This document shows positions 44,733 to 57,900 of a stretch of 64,000 nt of DNA, piece after piece. Each line of letters starts with the position of its first letter. Position 1 is the first letter of the stretch. The notes beneath the pieces were generated by a model that saw only the letters and a program-made list of their open reading frames with translations, was not told where the DNA came from and made no database searches. Made by a program: the position numbers and the translations under genes. The DNA is from Jatrophihabitans sp. GAS493 (GTDB taxonomy: Bacteria; Actinomycetota; Actinomycetes; Mycobacteriales; Jatrophihabitantaceae): NCBI RefSeq assembly GCF_900230215.1, contig NZ_LT907982.1:2666001-2730000 (forward strand). Direction: 5' to 3'.

Positions 44733-44803
44733 GCCGGCTAGAGCAGCGGGTCGCCGCCGACTTGCCGACGGTCGGTTCGAGAAACCCAGCCGACGATTTT
44801 CGA

Positions 44804-44847
44804 TGGTGCCCCCGGCAGGATTCGAACCTGCGCCACCGCCTCCGGAG
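44804..44847. repeat. attachment site copy, left end of the AICE
   Basis: These 44 bases are identical to 57857-57900 and correspond to the tRNA-Arg(CCG) from the anticodon loop to the CCA end. The bases to the right differ from the tRNA, so only the 3' half is present and this copy is not a tRNA gene. It marks the outer left boundary of the element, 71 nt after the stop of the secreted protein gene. Confidence 0.95.
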
Positions 44848-44890
44848 AGAGGCGTACTTCGCGGCGCACAGGAGTCTCAGAGCGGAATGC

Positions 44891-44952: not shown

Positions 44953-44975
44953 ACCGTGGCACGTATATGGCACAG
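44953..44975. repeat. outer arm-type repeat, left end (pair with 57716-57738)
   Basis: A 23-bp block (starting ACCGTGGCACG, ending ATGGCACAG) that is identical to 57716-57738 and in the same orientation. It lies about 105 nt inside the left core repeat; its partner lies about 118 nt inside the right one. Such an arrangement is that of arm-type binding sites for a tyrosine integrase flanking the core of attP. Confidence 0.8.
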
Positions 44976-45092: not shown

Positions 45093-46964
45093 TTAGTCGC
45101 GCTCGCCGGCACTGCTTCGATCGCTGCCCGGTCGGATCGAATTCTCCGTGGCGGCGTCGCGGTCCTGCTCGTACGCGGGCGAGTTGACATACTGGGCTAT
45201 CGGCAAAAGTGCTAGCCGGAGACACAGCCACCAGACGTACAACGACTGGTAACTCCAGGCCGCTGCGTCGTCAACAAGCCCATGTGCGATCTCGTTGCGT
45301 AGGTTGAATCCGCCCTGTACGACCAGCAACGATCTAAGCTCTATGACGAAACCGGTCCCAAACACGTCCTCCGCTTCCTGCATCTCGAGGAGTGCATTCA
45401 GGCTCTTCTCGCTCTCGACGCCCTGGTCATCGACGAAGAGCGTATGGACGTCCCGACGCTTGAGTAAGGTCCGGACGGAATGCTCCAGTTGGGGGACCAG
45501 GATCGCGACTGCTGATCCGACGTCGCCACTAAGGCCGAATGCGAGGCCAGCACCCCACAGATCACCGTGGCCTTCTGGCACGGTCGGTGAGTCCACGCAT
45601 AGGGCGGTGATGAACTCACGGTCGTATCGATGCAAGGCGGTCAGCAGCTCCCGGGCCGGCGCTATCGCCCCGTGCGCCTTCATGAGCGCGTGGGCCGTGA
45701 CGAGTCGGACAACTTCGCGCTCGATCGCAGGGTTGCTTGATTCGCTCCTGCCTTGCGTCGAGGCGACCTTGCGCCCGTCATACGAGAATGTCGCAGACGG
45801 AAAAAGCTGCCCAATCGTGCCTTGTAGCGCCTCCTCTGCGCCCGCGCGGATCTGGGCCGCGTCGACGAGCGGTACTAGAGTCGCGAACATCGCTAGCGCT
45901 ATCAGTCGATCGCTTTGGCCGGAAACCCTCTCTCGGGCGTACGCGGTCATCTCGGTCAGATCGACTGAGCCCCCCCTGATCGTCTCCATGTTTTCGAGGG
46001 TTATCTCGCGGCTGCCCTGAAGACGTTTCCGTAAGCCGCCGATGAGGTCGTCGATACCATTGGCCTGGCGGTAGCTTCGCGGCAGTCCGACAAAGACAGC
46101 GATGGCCTTCTCAAGATCGAGCCCTTCGACCATGGCTCCGCCGATAGGGTCTGCGGCGACTCGGGCATCGGCCTCAGCCAGGTATGTACGTGCGACCCGT
46201 TCAGTGACCACCCACACTGCCTGCTTGTCTCCAAGCCATTCTGCGGCCTCACGTAGAAGGTGCCGTGACAAGCGTGGTTCGGCCCGCGTGTCCCCCGAAA
46301 GCTTGAGGAGGGCGTCGGCGACCTCGCTTCGCTCCGCCGGCAAGACGCTGGCGGCTTTTCGCATGAGTGACGCCAGGTCCGGGATGAGGAATCGGTCAGA
46401 AGCACTACCCTTCAGGACACGATCTTTGAGGGCCGCGGTCATTTCGCCGAGAACCTTCGTGCCGGGGCTGCCGCGTCGTTTGGCGAGTTCCATGGCGCGC
46501 CGCCATGCGTCTTTGCCGACACTAAACCAGACGTCGGCGGCCAGTGGAGCGGCACGATAGGCGTTGATGGCGGTGTCGAGCAGATCAACATCGGATCGGT
46601 CCCCGTAGAACCACGCAATGTCGGCCACACGCGCCAGCAGATCTGGCCGGTCGAGGAGTGGAGCGATGCGCGCCAATAGCGCCACCTGCTCAGAACTCAA
46701 GTCCTGAGGGATGATCGATCGCCTGTCCGCGAGTTGCATCGCAGGATTGAAAGGGTGGAGCCAGTCGCTCGGGTTCAGCATGGCGGAGGTTGCTTGCGCG
46801 AGCGTGTCGAGCACGACCTCCTGAAACTCGCCTACGCCGTCCCGTTTCGCGAGAGATTCAAGTGCGATGGACAGGAGCTCCGGGGGTTCGTACCCGTCGG
46901 CGCTCGCCTCGACAGCGTCCAGTGCCCACCAACTCGGGTCAATGTCCTCCAGTTGCAGATCCAT
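45093..46964 (-). CDS. DUF4209 domain protein with HEPN-type RNxxxH motif (AICE cargo)
   Basis: The 623-residue, mostly helical soluble protein begins MDLQLEDIDPSWW and has an all-alpha N-terminal part that I do not recognise. The C-terminal portion carries FNLRNEIAHGL (Arg556, His561), the RNxxxHG signature that defines DUF4209 (PF13910) and equals the catalytic Rx4-6H motif of HEPN ribonucleases. HEPN nucleases are typical effectors in toxin and anti-phage systems, so a defence role is plausible but inferred. GAGGA lies before ATG 46964. It faces the left end and has mixed codon use compared with core genes. Confidence 0.8.
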   Translation of the reverse strand: MDLQLEDIDPSWWALDAVEASADGYEPPELLSIALESLAKRDGVGEFQEVVLDTLAQATSAMLNPSDWLHPFNPAMQLADRRSIIPQDLSSEQVALLARIAPLLDRPDLLARVADIAWFYGDRSDVDLLDTAINAYRAAPLAADVWFSVGKDAWRRAMELAKRRGSPGTKVLGEMTAALKDRVLKGSASDRFLIPDLASLMRKAASVLPAERSEVADALLKLSGDTRAEPRLSRHLLREAAEWLGDKQAVWVVTERVARTYLAEADARVAADPIGGAMVEGLDLEKAIAVFVGLPRSYRQANGIDDLIGGLRKRLQGSREITLENMETIRGGSVDLTEMTAYARERVSGQSDRLIALAMFATLVPLVDAAQIRAGAEEALQGTIGQLFPSATFSYDGRKVASTQGRSESSNPAIEREVVRLVTAHALMKAHGAIAPARELLTALHRYDREFITALCVDSPTVPEGHGDLWGAGLAFGLSGDVGSAVAILVPQLEHSVRTLLKRRDVHTLFVDDQGVESEKSLNALLEMQEAEDVFGTGFVIELRSLLVVQGGFNLRNEIAHGLVDDAAAWSYQSLYVWWLCLRLALLPIAQYVNSPAYEQDRDAATENSIRPGSDRSSAGERD

Positions 46965-46977
46965 GTATTGTTCGTCC

Positions 46978-47169
46978 TCAATTCATCTTGGTCGACATCG
47001 CTTTGCCCTTCCCGCTGGCCGCCCGCCTGTCGGCCGGCCAGGTAGGCGGATGGCACTTGAAGCAGAATATGGTGTTTCCAAGGGCCAGGGTTTCTCCGTG
47101 CACCTTCAGTCCGCAGTCCAAGCACAGAATTTCGCATACGCGGTGTTCTCCACCGACTCCCGCCGATCG
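46978..47169 (-). pseudogene. zinc-ribbon-like frame without a start codon
   Basis: A 63-codon open frame ends 13 nt before the DUF4209 gene start, in the same direction. It codes for two CxxC pairs separated by 16 residues (CLDCGLKV and CFKCHPP), a zinc-ribbon pattern, then a basic tail ending KAMSTKMN. No ATG, GTG or TTG precedes the first cysteine pair before an in-frame TAG at 47170-47172. It may be a decayed upstream partner of the DUF4209 gene or use an unusual start such as ATT. Confidence 0.4.
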
Positions 47170-48023
47170 CTACCCCGGTCGGCTGACCGCCCCGCCTGTC
47201 AATCGGCCATTGACGCCCGAGGCCGTTGTTCTGCCGTTGCTCCATCAGACTTGGCTCTCTCCCGTGACCCTGGTTGTGGTGTGTGGGCAGGTGGGTTCCT
47301 ATACCTGCCCGGACACCTCAGGGACCGCGGCGGAGGTACCCGGGTGTCAAGGGCGGCCCGTGCTGTTGGGGCCGTGCATTTCACCCTTGACATCCGGCCC
47401 GAAGGGTCCGCCGTGGTACTACGCGACCGCCTGAATCTGAAGTAGCCCCGTGTCGTGCGAGAAGTGAGCGCGCCGCCGGCGCCCCTCGGTTGATCTCCAC
47501 CGGTCCTGACGGTCATCGCGGTGAACGCTGCGCTTGTCGTCGGATCGCGAATTGGCTCACGCGTTGGGACGGACGACGGCCGGTGCAGGTCGACGGCGTT
47601 GTCCTCGTCGCCCTCGTCGACCTGGTCGTGATGCTGTGTTGGTTGATCTCAGCACCGGTTGCCGCTGACAGGCGGGGCAGGCGGCGGCGGACGAGGACGG
47701 CGCGCCAGCGCCGCCCGCAGGGAGCCGGTGCATGCCCCGTGCGGCCGAAGGCCGCCTTGATCCCACAAGAGCCGAAATCGGCAATTCGAGAACGTTGAGC
47801 CTGGTCAGAACGGGTCGACCAACTGTGCGCCCGCCTCGTCAGACGGGGGACTCGGCAAACGATGTCTTGCGATTGGCAGGCGGCCCGGAGCAAGTTGTCT
47901 AGCACGCGCGAGTTGCAGAATCCGTCGGAAAATCACCTGCGGAACTACTCGGCCAGGGCTTCGACATCTGGGCCACGGGGCTTGGAACGGAAGGCGCAAT
48001 ACACTCGATAGCAGGAGGCTGAC
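47170..48023. other. non-coding 0.85-kb segment of the AICE with inverted repeats
   Basis: I see no convincing gene here; frames across it have poor codon statistics. It contains several inverted repeats: GTCAAT/ATTGAC at 47198-47214; TGTCAAGGG/CCCTTGACA at 47345-47392 with an inner GGCCC/GGGCC pair, forming one 48-nt hairpin; and GCGGCC-GAA-GGCCGC at 47741-47755. TGTCAA recurs. Hairpin-rich non-coding DNA of this size in a rolling-circle AICE could be an origin (single- or double-strand), a transfer locus or an RNA gene; which is unknown. Confidence 0.5.
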
Positions 48024-52234: not shown

Positions 52235-53784
52235 CCCGGTTCGGGAAGTCCTACGGCGGCACCCGGCGTGACCCGGCCCCGATGCAGGTCCACATGGCCA
52301 AGGTCAAAGTGCCGCTGACGGCGGTGATCGCGGCCTGGGTCGCTCGTCGGGTCTGGGCCGGTGTGGTGGCGTGCGTGAAGCATCCCCTTACCATGCTGTT
52401 CCTGGCGTTGCTGCTGTGGCTGTGGCACCTCGACCTCGAACACGGCCCGCTGCCCATCCTCACTACGGTCGCGCTGGTCCTCGTGGTCGGTGGGGTGTGG
52501 CGGTGGCGGTGGCCGGAGTCCTTCACCCGCCACGTCGCCTGGCGGGTCCGTGGGGTCTGGCGGTCACGTCGGGTGTATCGGTACTACTGGCAGCCGGCGA
52601 TGGTCCTCACCGGCCTGTCAGTCACGATCAACGGCGAAGAACACCTCCCCACGATCACCTCCGTCCGCTCCTCAGCGACGGTGGATGTGGTGACGTTGCG
52701 GATGCTGCCTGGTCAGTGCGTCACCGACTGGGCTGGTGTCGCCGCACGGTTGGCGCAGACGTTCGGGGTGCTGGAAGTGCGGGTCCGCTCCGTCCCGACG
52801 AATCCCCGCAAGGTCCAACTCTGGGCACGCACCTCTGACCCGCTGACAGTCCCGGTGCAGCCGTTCCCGATCGCCGAGCACCCCGACTTCACCGCACTCC
52901 CGGTTGCGTTGTCGGAGGACGGGTTGCCGTACCGGCTGCGGCTGCTCGGCACGCATCTGCTGGTGGTCGGTGAGACGGGGTCGGGGAAGGGCAGTGTGTT
53001 GTGGTCGCTCCTCGCCGCGCTCGCACCGGCGATTCGGGACCGGTGGTGTGAGGTCTGGGCGATCGACCCCAAGGGCGGGATGGAACTGGCCCCCGGCGCG
53101 CAGTTGTTCGCCCGGTTCTCCTACGGCGACCCCGACGATGACGAGGCGTATGAGTACGACTTCGCCCGCATCCTCGAAGCCGCTGTGCTGGTCATGCGCC
53201 GCCGCCAAGCCGCTCTGCGCGGTCACACCCGGCTGCACAGTCCTTCGGTTCTCGAGCCGCTGATCGTGATCGTCGTCGACGAACTCGCGTCGTTAACCGC
53301 GTATGTGAATGACCGGGACGCGAAGAAGCGGATCAGCGCCGCCCTGTCCCTGCTCCTCTCTCAGGGAAGAGCGGTCGGGGTCACGGTGATCGGCGCGGTG
53401 CAAGACCCGAGAAAGGACGTCGTCCCGTTCCGTGACCTGTTCCCCACCCGCATCGCGCTGCGCCTGGCGGAAGCCGATCAGGTCGGGCTGGTCCTCGGTG
53501 CAGGGGCGAGGGATCGGGGTGCCCGTTGCGATGAGATCCCTGAATCGCTGCCCGGGGTCGGGTTTGTCGTCCTCGATGGTGTTGCCGAACCGGTGCGGGT
53601 GCGCTTCACCCACGTGACCGACGAGCACATCGCCGGCCTGGTGCGGGACTACACGCCGGGGACGATCACCGTCACCGCGACCTCGACCCGGATAAACGGC
53701 TACGACCCCGCCCTCACCGACCATCCGATGCTCACGGATGTGTCGGACGTGGTGCCTCACGCGTTGGACGGTGACGCAGCATGA
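52231..53784 (+). CDS. traSA: FtsK/SpoIIIE-type DNA translocase, TraSA/TraB-like
   Basis: The 517-residue protein is the main transfer protein of AICEs, moving double-stranded DNA between cells. Two hydrophobic segments lie at about 55-95, followed by an FtsK ATPase domain with Walker A GETGSGKGS and Walker B LIVIVVDELASL, and VTVIGAVQDPRK and PTRIALRL further on. The DNA-recognition gamma-type wing is not evident. ATG 52231 overlaps the upstream stop by 4 nt and its own stop overlaps the next start by 4 nt. Confidence 0.92.
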   Translation: MTRFGKSYGGTRRDPAPMQVHMAKVKVPLTAVIAAWVARRVWAGVVACVKHPLTMLFLALLLWLWHLDLEHGPLPILTTVALVLVVGGVWRWRWPESFTRHVAWRVRGVWRSRRVYRYYWQPAMVLTGLSVTINGEEHLPTITSVRSSATVDVVTLRMLPGQCVTDWAGVAARLAQTFGVLEVRVRSVPTNPRKVQLWARTSDPLTVPVQPFPIAEHPDFTALPVALSEDGLPYRLRLLGTHLLVVGETGSGKGSVLWSLLAALAPAIRDRWCEVWAIDPKGGMELAPGAQLFARFSYGDPDDDEAYEYDFARILEAAVLVMRRRQAALRGHTRLHSPSVLEPLIVIVVDELASLTAYVNDRDAKKRISAALSLLLSQGRAVGVTVIGAVQDPRKDVVPFRDLFPTRIALRLAEADQVGLVLGAGARDRGARCDEIPESLPGVGFVVLDGVAEPVRVRFTHVTDEHIAGLVRDYTPGTITVTATSTRINGYDPALTDHPMLTDVSDVVPHALDGDAA

Positions 53785-54191: not shown

Positions 54192-54592
54192 TGACCGGCC
54201 AAACGCTGATGCCGTTCGGTGTCCCGGTCGTGTCGGTGGAGCATCGTGGCGAGTTGCTGCGCCTGGTTGCCGACGATTGGCGCGACTCAGCCGCCTGCAC
54301 CTCACCGAACGCAAGCGTCCGTGATTCGCGGGGCGTTGACCCGTTCTACCCTGCCGACCCCGACACCCTGACGGATGTCGCACGGTCGATCTGTGGCCGG
54401 TGCCCGGTCCAGGTCTCCTGCCTCGCGGTCGTGCTGATCAGCAATGAAGACCAGGGCATCTGGGGCGGCACGACACCCCTGGTCCGGGACCGGATTTGCA
54501 TGGACCTGGCCGACGGTGCCCCAGTCTCGGTTGTGTTGGCTGGCGTCAACGCAGCCTTGACAGCCGATTCCGGTGCGGGGGTGGCCGCATGA
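54176..54592 (+). CDS. WhiB-family protein encoded by the AICE
   Basis: The 138-residue protein has a WhiB domain with cluster cysteines at 41, 73, 76 and 82 (AACTSPN, then CGRCPVQVSC) and the GIWGGTT turn. N-terminal and C-terminal extensions are unusual, and the basic DNA-binding tail expected after the turn is weak. It may act with the host sigma factor to control the element, or antagonise host WhiB proteins. ATG 54176; the stop overlaps the repSA start (ATGA). Confidence 0.85.
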   Translation: MAHKMMTGQTLMPFGVPVVSVEHRGELLRLVADDWRDSAACTSPNASVRDSRGVDPFYPADPDTLTDVARSICGRCPVQVSCLAVVLISNEDQGIWGGTTPLVRDRICMDLADGAPVSVVLAGVNAALTADSGAGVAA

Positions 54593-56136
54593 GAACCGCC
54601 CGCAACCCAGGTGTGACGGATCGGCTCGCACATGACCTCGCCGAAGCCGAAGGGGTCTGCGTGCAGCCACTGCTACGCCGGTTGATCGACCGCGACACCG
54701 GCCACGCCACCGTCGTCATCCTGCCCTGCGGCTCGACCAGGGCGTCTCGGTGTGTGCCATGCGCGGAGAAAGCCCGCCGATTGCGGATGCAGCAATGCAC
54801 CGAAGGGTGGCACCTCACCGAAGAACTCCCCGACAAACCAACGGCAACCTCGGACGACGACCAGGGCGACGGTGACGACCTGGTCGACGAGTTGGGCGAG
54901 CGTCGGGTGCGGTCTACCCGTCGGCGGCAAGATGCCCCGGACCTTCCCCGGCTGCCGATCGAGGACCGGACCGTCGGTGCGTCGTTCGACGGGCGGCAGG
55001 GGAAGGTGTTCCGCCCGTCGATGTTCATCACGCTCACCCTGCCCTCCTACGGCAAGATCAGCCCCGGCACCGGAGTGCCGGTCAACCGACGGACGTATGA
55101 CTACCGCCGTGCCGCGCTCGACGCGCTGCTGTTTCCGAAAGTGATCGATCGGTGGGTGCAGAACCTGCGCCGCGCTGCTGGCTTCCAAGTCCAGTACTTC
55201 GCTGCGGTCGAACCGCAGAAGCGGTTGGCGCCGCATTTGCATGCCGCTGTCCGTGGTGCGATCCCGAGAGCGCTGGTCAAGCAAGTCACCGCCGGGACGT
55301 ATCACCAGGTCTGGTGGCCCTCCATCGACGAGCCGGTCTATCAGGACGGGGACGTGATGCCGGTCTGGGACCGCGACCTCGCCGGCTACGTCGACCCGGT
55401 CACCGGCGAAGCACTCCGCACCTGGGGCGATGCGCTCGACGATCTTGATCTCGACCCGGACGCGAAACCGATGCACGTCGTTCGGCTCGGGAAGCAGGTC
55501 GACATCCAGGGCATCATCGCTCCTTCCCCGGACGCGGACCGGGCCGTTCGGTATCTGACGAAGTATTTGGCGAAGTCGATGGCCGACACCTATGACGACC
55601 CCTATGACATGGACACCGCCCGCCAAGCGCACCTGAACCGGTTGCACGCTGAGATCCGGGTGCTGCCGTGCTCGCCGAAATGCGCGAACTGGCTGCGCTA
55701 CGGCATCCAACCCGCTGACCCCGGCCCGGGGCTCACTCCGGGCCGTTGCATCTCGAAGGCCCACGACGCTGAGCACCTGGGCCTCGGTGGGCGGCGTGTT
55801 CTCGTCTCAAGGAAGTGGACGGGGAAGACCCTCGACCAGCACAAGGCCGACCGCTGCGAGATCGTCCGCGCCGTCCTGGCTGAGGCCGGGATGGAGATGC
55901 AAGACCGGGACCGGTGCGCCGCTGACCAGCTCAGTGAAGACGGGCTGCCCCGGTTTCGGTGGGAACCGATCGACGTGACCCAAGCCGACTACCAGACCGT
56001 TATCGGCCACGCCCTCATCCAGCACAGGACGTGGAAAGCCCAATACGAACAAGCGAAAGCGTTGGCTGCGAACGGCCCACCGGGGCCTGTGGACAGTCGT
56101 TCGGCAACCACCCAACCCGCCGCAACAGCGGCCTAA
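54589..56136 (+). CDS. repSA: replication initiator RepSA (rolling-circle type)
   Basis: The 515-residue protein is the AICE replication initiator, which nicks the double-strand origin. A cysteine pair (RCVPCAEKARRLR) near the N-terminus, the beta strand with FITLTLPSYG, the HUH-like LAPHLHAAVRG and the catalytic-tyrosine region RAVRYLTKYLAKS are the family's conserved blocks. PCSPKCANWLRYG may be a zinc site. It is coupled to the WhiB-like gene upstream; the xis gene starts 14 nt after its stop. Confidence 0.9.
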   Translation: MRTARNPGVTDRLAHDLAEAEGVCVQPLLRRLIDRDTGHATVVILPCGSTRASRCVPCAEKARRLRMQQCTEGWHLTEELPDKPTATSDDDQGDGDDLVDELGERRVRSTRRRQDAPDLPRLPIEDRTVGASFDGRQGKVFRPSMFITLTLPSYGKISPGTGVPVNRRTYDYRRAALDALLFPKVIDRWVQNLRRAAGFQVQYFAAVEPQKRLAPHLHAAVRGAIPRALVKQVTAGTYHQVWWPSIDEPVYQDGDVMPVWDRDLAGYVDPVTGEALRTWGDALDDLDLDPDAKPMHVVRLGKQVDIQGIIAPSPDADRAVRYLTKYLAKSMADTYDDPYDMDTARQAHLNRLHAEIRVLPCSPKCANWLRYGIQPADPGPGLTPGRCISKAHDAEHLGLGGRRVLVSRKWTGKTLDQHKADRCEIVRAVLAEAGMEMQDRDRCAADQLSEDGLPRFRWEPIDVTQADYQTVIGHALIQHRTWKAQYEQAKALAANGPPGPVDSRSATTQPAATAA

Positions 56137-56339: not shown

Positions 56340-57706
56340 TGGCGACGACGTTTGACGTTCGGGTCTGGCAGATCGAGACCTTCGAGGGGGTGCGGAGCGT
56401 CAGCTACCGAGTTCGTTGGAGGGCTGACGCCCAACGTTTTAAACGGACGTTCCATACGAAGGCCCTCGCCGACGGATTCCGCGCCGACCTGATCGCGTCG
56501 ACTCGGCGAGGCGATGCGTTCGAGGTTTCGACGGGGCTGCCTGCGTCGATGGCCCGTGGTGGCGTTGGTGTGTCGTGGTATTCCTTTGCTTTGGACTACA
56601 CGGACTTGAAGTGGCCTCGCATTGCCGCGACGACGCGGCGTACCCACGCGGAGGCCCTAACCGCTGTGACGGTGCTGTTGCTCTCGTCGATCCGGGGCTG
56701 CCCGGAGGAGCAGCTGCTGCGCCGCGCACTGAAGCGGTGGGCCTTCAACACGACTGGCCGGAATGACCCGTCGTGTCCGCCTGAGGTTCGGCGCGCGCTG
56801 CGGTGGGTTGCGAGTCATACGCGGGACGTGTCGGCGCTCAGTGATCCGGTGGTCCTTCGCGACGTGCTCGACGGCCTGGCGCTTCGTCTCGATGGCACGC
56901 ATCGCTCGGCGAGCGTTGTTCTTCGGTGGCGCAAGATCTTCAACAACGCGCTTGAGTACGCGGTCGATCGGAAACTGCTCGACGCGAACCCGCTCCCTGC
57001 GCTGAAGTGGAAGCCACCGCGCTCTGTCCGAGCGATCGACGCCCGGTCGGTGGTGAACCCGGTACAGGCGCGGACGCTGTTGAATGCCGTGCGAGCGGAG
57101 CTCCCGTCGGGGCCTCGATTCGTCGCGCTGTACGGGTGCCTGTATTTCGCTGCGCTGCGACCTGAGGAGGCGTCCGGGCTGTCTGTGCAGAACCTTGCTC
57201 TGCCGGCGGTGGGCTGGGGCGAGCTCCATTTGGAGCGCGCACGCCCGTTCGCTGGGCGGGAATGGACCAACTCTGGGGAGGCCCGTGATGATCGCGAACT
57301 CAAGCAGCGGGCGGTGGGGGAGCTGCGGGTCGTGCCGTCGCCTCCGGAGTTGACTGCGCTGCTTCGCTGGCATCTGGACGAGTTCGGGACCACACCTGAC
57401 GGGCGCTTGTTCGTGGGGGAGCGCAACCGTGAGCATCTGCCGGCGTCGACCGTGTTCCGGACTTGGCAGCGTGCCCGGTGCAAGGCGTTCACCCCGGAGG
57501 CGGTCGCTTCGCCGTTGGCTCGCACGCCGTATGACCTGCGTCATGCTGCGGTGTCGACGTGGCTGGCTGCGGGCGTTCCACCGACTCAGGTTGCCGCGTG
57601 GGCGGGTCACTCGGTCGAGGTGCTGTTGGGCATCTATGCGAAGTGCCTCGACGGGGGAGCGGCCCAGATGCGGGCTCGTGTTGAGAACGCGCTGGCCGGT
57701 AAGTGA
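56339..57706 (+). CDS. int: tyrosine recombinase (AICE integrase)
   Basis: The 455-residue phage-type integrase catalyses site-specific recombination at the tRNA-Arg site. The catalytic domain has Arg in YFAALRPEEASGL, PYDLRHAAVSTWL, WAGHSVEVLLGIYAKC (His and nucleophile Tyr), giving the full R-H-R-H-Y set; the N-terminal part binds arm and core sites. GTG 56339 overlaps the xis stop. The stop lies about 150 nt from the core, within which the arm repeats lie. Confidence 0.94.
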   Translation: MATTFDVRVWQIETFEGVRSVSYRVRWRADAQRFKRTFHTKALADGFRADLIASTRRGDAFEVSTGLPASMARGGVGVSWYSFALDYTDLKWPRIAATTRRTHAEALTAVTVLLLSSIRGCPEEQLLRRALKRWAFNTTGRNDPSCPPEVRRALRWVASHTRDVSALSDPVVLRDVLDGLALRLDGTHRSASVVLRWRKIFNNALEYAVDRKLLDANPLPALKWKPPRSVRAIDARSVVNPVQARTLLNAVRAELPSGPRFVALYGCLYFAALRPEEASGLSVQNLALPAVGWGELHLERARPFAGREWTNSGEARDDRELKQRAVGELRVVPSPPELTALLRWHLDEFGTTPDGRLFVGERNREHLPASTVFRTWQRARCKAFTPEAVASPLARTPYDLRHAAVSTWLAAGVPPTQVAAWAGHSVEVLLGIYAKCLDGGAAQMRARVENALAGK

Positions 57707-57715
57707 GGCGACGGA

Positions 57716-57738
57716 ACCGTGGCACGTATATGGCACAG
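57716..57738. repeat. outer arm-type repeat, right end
   Basis: Identical to 44953-44975 and in the same orientation, 9 nt after the integrase stop. It is the second member of the pair that would flank the core in the circular element. Confidence 0.8.
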
Positions 57739-57827: not shown

Positions 57828-57856
57828 GGAGGCCAGGTTTTCCGGTGATTTTGTGG

Positions 57857-57900
57857 TGGTGCCCCCGGCAGGATTCGAACCTGCGCCACCGCCTCCGGAG
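57857..57900. repeat. attachment site copy, right end of the AICE, inside the functional tRNA
   Basis: Identical to 44804-44847 over 44 nt. It forms the 3' half of the complete tRNA-Arg(CCG) gene, from the anticodon loop to CCA, so the insertion rebuilt the tRNA and did not disrupt it. Confidence 0.95.

Follow-up and report, generated by a model that had tools for sequence, protein, structure and literature searches.

A probable rolling-circle replication origin upstream of RepSA in an AICE of Jatrophihabitans sp. GAS493

The element and its genes

The window analysed here is a stretch of 64,000 nucleotides of the genome of Jatrophihabitans sp. GAS493, which consists of one contig of 4.88 Mb. 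A preliminary description of this DNA, made from the sequence alone, placed the segment 47170-48023 in a rolling-circle AICE, and this is confirmed by a RepSA initiator, an FtsK-like Tra protein, an integrase, and tRNA att repeats (Table 1). Just inside the ends of the element, beside the att repeats, is an exact 23-bp direct repeat (44953-44975 and 57716-57738) that could be an arm site of the integrase or of Xis. The cargo includes a gene on the minus strand (45093-46964) for a protein of 623 aa with DUF7380 and DUF4209, possibly a defence-type gene. Just upstream of this gene on the same strand lies a likely zinc-ribbon ORF at about 46977-47160, absent from the list of open reading frames, with a CxxC..CxxC pattern (LDCGLKVHGETLALGNTIFCFKCH); it almost touches position 47170.

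Structure of the segment between the cargo genes

No convincing gene was found in 47170-48023, in agreement with the preliminary description. The inverted repeats reported there are also genuine and exceed chance, as judged by fold z-scores and by a second genomic copy, but they are concentrated in part of the segment. An inverted-repeat search placed the arms of the reported hairpin at 47340-47353 and 47384-47397 (14-bp arms, 13/14 paired, spacing 30 nt), enclosed by a larger helix formed by 47324-47334 and 47407-47417. Folded as single-stranded DNA, 47272-47425 reaches -50.8 kcal/mol, compared with -31.4 +/- 2.8 in dinucleotide shuffles (z = -6.9, 0/200 as low). The stretch 47664-47790 gives z = -3.6, and the remaining 150-nt windows of the segment fold near chance (z about -2 to +1). 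The repeated TGTCAA word that had also been pointed out is attributable to chance, with nine copies on both strands of the 64 kb and about 12 expected by our own estimate from base composition. A repeat search found no array of short direct repeats in the segment.

The second copy of this region, at 828273-828809 of the same genome, is 82% identical to 47242-47785 and lies 4.7 kb upstream of a RepSA gene whose product is 91.6% identical to the RepSA of the window. The two copies are nearly identical in block A (about 47287-47440) and again in block B (about 47688-47765); the intervening stretch has drifted. Their homology ends at both edges, 47170-47241 and 47786-48023 being unlike. Stem-loop 2 of block A consists of an outer helix, ACCGCGGCGGA/TCCGCCGTGGT, around a TGTCAAGGG..CCCTTGACA hairpin plus a CCCGAAGGG hairpin. 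The neighbours of the second copy are a DprA-like gene and a phosphoribosyltransferase-like gene (2-685 and 682-1449 of locus L002), a pairing that we take to recall predicted conflict systems.

Table 1. Features of the AICE and of its predicted origin region, in positions of the window
Feature	Position	Strand	Basis or remark
Left att repeat, tRNA-Arg part	44795-44848	.	54 bp, 94% identical to 57847-57900; tRNA-Arg call
Origin region common to second AICE of same genome	47242-47784	+	About 543 bp; 82% identity, 550 columns; two near-invariant blocks
Block A, nested hairpin cluster	47275-47417		z = -6.9
Block A stem-loop 1 (GGTGTGTGGGCAGGT / ACCTGCCCGGACACC)	47275-47320	+	Inverted repeat I5; DNA fold; kept in second copy
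Block A stem-loop 2, candidate single-strand origin	47324-47417	+	Repeats I9 + I20; z = -6.9
Block B	47688-47784		Hairpins, then CTTGAT, then 23-nt tail
Block B stem GAGGACGGCGC..GCGCCGCCCGCAG	47693-47720	+	Pattern family; start of RepSA-linked element
Block B nick-side hairpin GCGGCC GAA GGCCGC	47741-47755	+	Covarying in relatives
CTTGAT, predicted RepSA nick between 47759 and 47760	47756-47761	+	Near-invariant CTTGA in type 1; equals pC194 nick core (PMC5037232)
Type-1 tail with palindrome GCCGAAATCGGC, predicted RepSA recognition element	47762-47784	+	Tail type splits with RepSA clade; conservation stops here
FtsK-like transfer protein TraB	52246-53784	+	PF01580
RepSA, rolling-circle initiator, pMR2-type, predicted origin reader	54586-56136	+	PF20199, E 4e-87; tree
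AICE integrase	56345-57706	+	PF00589, weak; adjoins tRNA-Arg attachment site
Right att repeat, in tRNA-Arg	57847-57900	.	Pairs with left repeat; tRNA-Arg call

The block B family and its two tails

The pattern of the block B stem, GAGGACGGCGC..GCGCCGCCCGCAG, matched ten times in 6/399 genomes of the order, and its reversed control gave no match. Among 84,980 species genomes it recovered 72 stretches, nearly all from Actinomycetota; viral contigs and phages gave none. A few of the 72 are without the remaining layout and look like chance or coding matches. In the remaining stretches the stem is followed by a second hairpin, then by CTTGA and a tail, and conservation stops at the tail. Most of these relatives were chosen by the exact pattern, so the invariance of the stem reflects selection and is unused as evidence here; the covariance-model matches in the order described below are free of it. 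The preliminary description had proposed covariation analysis as a check on the hairpins, and the nick-side hairpin of block B does covary, with 79% of cells paired in relatives versus 61% after shuffling (0/500 as high) and far lower values for slid versions. A chimera test of the same stem gave a modest difference, the column-wise pairing count being the clearer of the two.

Two types of tail follow the second hairpin: type 1 reads roughly CTTGATnnnATAGAGnCAAATTCGGCAR and type 2 roughly CTTGAnnCAGTAnAGAAAGTCCTCACC. CTTGA is replaced by CTTTAACGG, ATTTACGG or CTTAACGG in four type-2 relatives (L033, L036, L080 and L095, mostly Nocardioides), and CTTTAA or ATTTAC stands in its place in some type-2 relatives. 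In part of the type-2 group, therefore, even the core of the nick site may have altered along with the Rep subclade. One copy, in Actinopolymorpha rutila (L103, about -1498 to +60 of the site), is broken inside the GAGGACGGCGC stem, about 1.3 kb before the next stem.

Linkage of block B to RepSA

The 39 genomes from which the loci came were searched for RepSA genes (PF20199), and the block B sites were mapped alongside. Where a RepSA match was no more than 60 kb away, block B was upstream of it and on its strand in 36/36 pairings, at distances of 23 bp to 33 kb and usually 5-15 kb; the 23-bp case is a RepSA fragment. The distance in the window is 6.9 kb, across regulator and tra genes. Two pairings with block B and RepSA on opposite strands were also seen, one of them with a RepSA remnant.

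The linkage was recovered by a covariance model (R1) that was built from 23 type-1 sites from outside the order of the window and run on 150 genomes of that order. Matches upstream, on the same strand, and within 25 kb accompany 39/47 pMR2-type versus 2/40 pSAM2-type RepSA matches (Fisher p 3e-14), mostly at 4.6-9.4 kb from the pMR2-type gene, and none of the 47 has R1 downstream. Of the eight pMR2-type matches that are without an R1 signal, several are incomplete genes or are situated where a contig begins. The exact pattern had already revealed seven of the 39 supported elements, and the others are new. Predicted sites are also present in records of Nonomuraea gerenzanensis and Nocardia farcinica, and in pMR2 of Micromonospora rosaria, the single plasmid record matched, which carries the AICE gene set. 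In four further pSAM2-type elements of the order the tail is of type 2 and on the same strand as Rep.

No RepSA is nearby for about 20 exact-pattern sites and for about 60 of 102 model matches, many of the latter weak; we take the cases of this kind to be contig ends, remnants or weak matches. Among those inspected, some are beside RepSA fragments (L161, L174, L176) and some are on short contigs; AICE genes were not found around others, for example a Kribbella site near gyrA-gyrB-recF-dnaN-dnaA. Origin-like sites of Kribbella and Actinopolymorpha (L159, L162-L166) are without RepSA within 18 kb downstream, and such sites are possibly remnants of lost AICEs or sites of another initiator.

Block B as the probable double-strand origin

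Block B is very probably the double-strand origin (dso) of the AICE, judged from sequence comparison. The pC194 dso reads TATTAT^CAAGATAAGAAAGA, which is TCTTTCTTATCTTG^ATAATA on the other strand (PMC5037232). The CTTGAT at 47756 of the window matches the core CTTG^ATA of this site, and a cut is therefore expected after G47759. Rep-binding elements in the pC194 family typically have inverted repeats (PMC5037232), and AICE nick sites were previously said to resemble that of pC194 (PMC3218068). Block B shares with pC194-type origins the nick core (CTTGATCC at 47756), linkage and specificity with respect to Rep, and a hairpin at the nick and binding region. Its distance of several kilobases from rep departs from the position close to or inside rep expected of a pC194-type dso. 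The dso is beside or in rep in most rolling-circle plasmids and "often positioned upstream of rep" (PMC5703833); since this proximity is usual and not universal, the distance is not taken as decisive. We hold more firmly that block B would work like a pC194-type dso than that it would be a member of the pC194 family.

The specificity for Rep is seen in the tails. In a phylogeny of 34 RepSA proteins a single change of tail type is needed, as it is in 200/200 bootstrap trees, and 0/500 shuffles gave a count as low. Type 1 goes with the clade that contains pMR2 and the window, and type 2 with the group of proteins that have high scores against the family model based on pSAM2. The genome studied here has three RepSA elements, two of pMR2-type (in the window and at 833 kb) and one of pSAM2-type (at 1255 kb), each with the matching tail. 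The two outside the window lie at about 828000-835000 and at 1255230-1264200 of the genome; in the latter, RepSA is at 1255230-1256555, and a type-2 tail (E 8e-11) precedes it by about 7.6 kb on its strand. RepSA-MR2 proteins were predicted to recognise discrete dso binding regions of their own (PMC3218068), and the two tail types are what this prediction asks for. No description of an origin of RepSA-MR2 type was found in the literature searched.

These observations bear on a reading in which blocks A and B would jointly serve mainly as a single-strand origin (sso), with the dso elsewhere near rep. The strong strand-specific hairpins (z = -6.9 and -3.6) fit such a reading, as does the finding that an sso is orientation-specific and flexible in position relative to rep (PMC5703833). 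However, the enzymes that read an sso are those of the host, and its type would accordingly be expected to track the host; here one genome has both tails, each with its own Rep; block B also holds a pC194-like nick core. We regard this reading as improbable. The preliminary description had itself suggested a single-strand origin: the origin part of that suggestion is strongly supported, but the decisive element is the dso in block B and not the 48-nt hairpin singled out there, which would at most be part of a single-strand origin.

The suggestions made at the outset also included a transfer locus (clt); the FtsK-like TraB would recognise such a locus in the conjugal transfer of double-stranded DNA. 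An intergenic AICE site of fixed orientation, in an element with TraB, is compatible with it. Yet with the same tail labels the TraB tree requires six changes, a count for which some type-2 rows were labelled by Rep rather than by the tail read; four changes are needed without those rows, three of them forced by well-supported branches. A Terrabacter element combines a type-2 tail and a pSAM2-type Rep with a Tra from the type-1 clade. Tail type thus goes with the phylogeny of Rep and not with that of Tra, and the site is more likely read by Rep than by Tra. The segment also has none of the short direct repeat arrays that were searched for, and we consider a clt very unlikely.

The covariation of the nick-side hairpin would be expected if the segment specified a structured RNA of the AICE, a regulator or an antisense RNA, but it fits a DNA hairpin equally well. 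Rfam gave no match at gathering or relaxed thresholds, and the letters that vary least are those of CTTGA and the tail, which are unpaired and differ from one Rep clade to the other. On all the evidence we give the early suggestion of a structured RNA a very slight chance. It is scarcely probable that block B is a non-autonomous transposable element or a gene-cassette recombination site (PATE/IS605-like ends, attC-like), since the copies, although dispersed and in some relatives arranged with one gene between a left and a right block, keep to one side and one strand with respect to RepSA, usually occur once in an element, and have no linked transposase, and searches for empty sites found none. 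The integron attC, IS200/IS605-like end, and gene-cassette readings were dropped given this fixed strand and side.

For block B as the dso, the following course of replication is proposed. RepSA, made about 7 kb downstream, would recognise the tail; the nick-adjacent hairpin would help to expose the site; and Rep would cut the plus strand in CTTG^AT. Copying of the leading strand would go on to traverse the tra-rep-int genes, follow the excised circle round, and return by way of the cargo. Lying just upstream of block B, block A would be single-stranded last and may fold into an sso that starts the second strand.

Block A as a candidate single-strand origin

The sso is upstream of the dso in most rolling-circle plasmids, and is consequently single-stranded only near the end of copying (PMC4595007). 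The upstream position of block A fits this in the window and in several relatives, and its folding (z = -6.9) supplies the strong secondary structure in the displaced strand that is expected of an sso. A GTCAAGG..CCTTGA hairpin like that of block A was found within 1.5 kb upstream in 11/50 relatives and downstream in 1/50. Across the family, folding upstream of block B shows no general excess, and for this reason we give block A about an even chance of being the sso.

Comparison with known systems

Block B and the pC194-group dso have in common the nick core CTTG^AT, a rolling-circle HUH initiator, an inverted repeat by the nick, and a fixed orientation, whereas the recognition tail of pC194 is unlike that of the window and the site in the window is several kilobases from rep. 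The phiX174 origin is also among the closest known systems. The origin of the AICE pSAM2 belongs to the same kind of element and initiator family, and its nick site was reported to be pC194-like (PMC3218068), but in the window RepSA is of pMR2-type and the tail of type 1. In pMR2 the element kind, the RepSA subfamily, the hairpin, CTTGATCTAGTACAGGCCAATTCGGCAAC on the Rep strand, and a long upstream hairpin are the same, while the GAGGACGG stem is not kept and the site is unannotated in the record. Block A resembles known single-strand origins (ssoA/U/T/W; ICEBs1 sso1) in its strong strand-specific hairpins just upstream of the dso (PMC4595007); the likeness is one of structure and place, and the block A structure is absent from some relatives.

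The dso-gene-sso segments of staphylococcal rolling-circle plasmids (qacC, lnuA) have a counterpart in three relatives (L035, L065 and L094) with one gene between a block A-like hairpin and block B, unlike the window, which has no gene between the blocks. The early idea that the segment is a recombination hotspot for cargo exchange gains slight support from the cargo genes between the two blocks in some relatives. Misfiring of rolling-circle initiation, which has been proposed for qacC, might carry such genes from one AICE to another in cassettes bounded by origins, with origin and Rep kept as a matched pair and tra and cargo genes swapped freely; we consider this unlikely.

The two-type signal offers a site at which Rep specificity, and the way in which AICEs coexist in one cell, can be tested. 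By means of the block B signal, AICEs or what remains of them could also be recognised in genomes and their orientation read, and small vectors for actinobacteria that are hard to manipulate could be developed from the origin. Identical 43-bp repeats flank a related AICE of this family (L063; contig C37 of genome G019, 112564-123831). Three other genomes of its genus each have a single copy of these 43 bp, which is what an attachment site without an integrated element would show.
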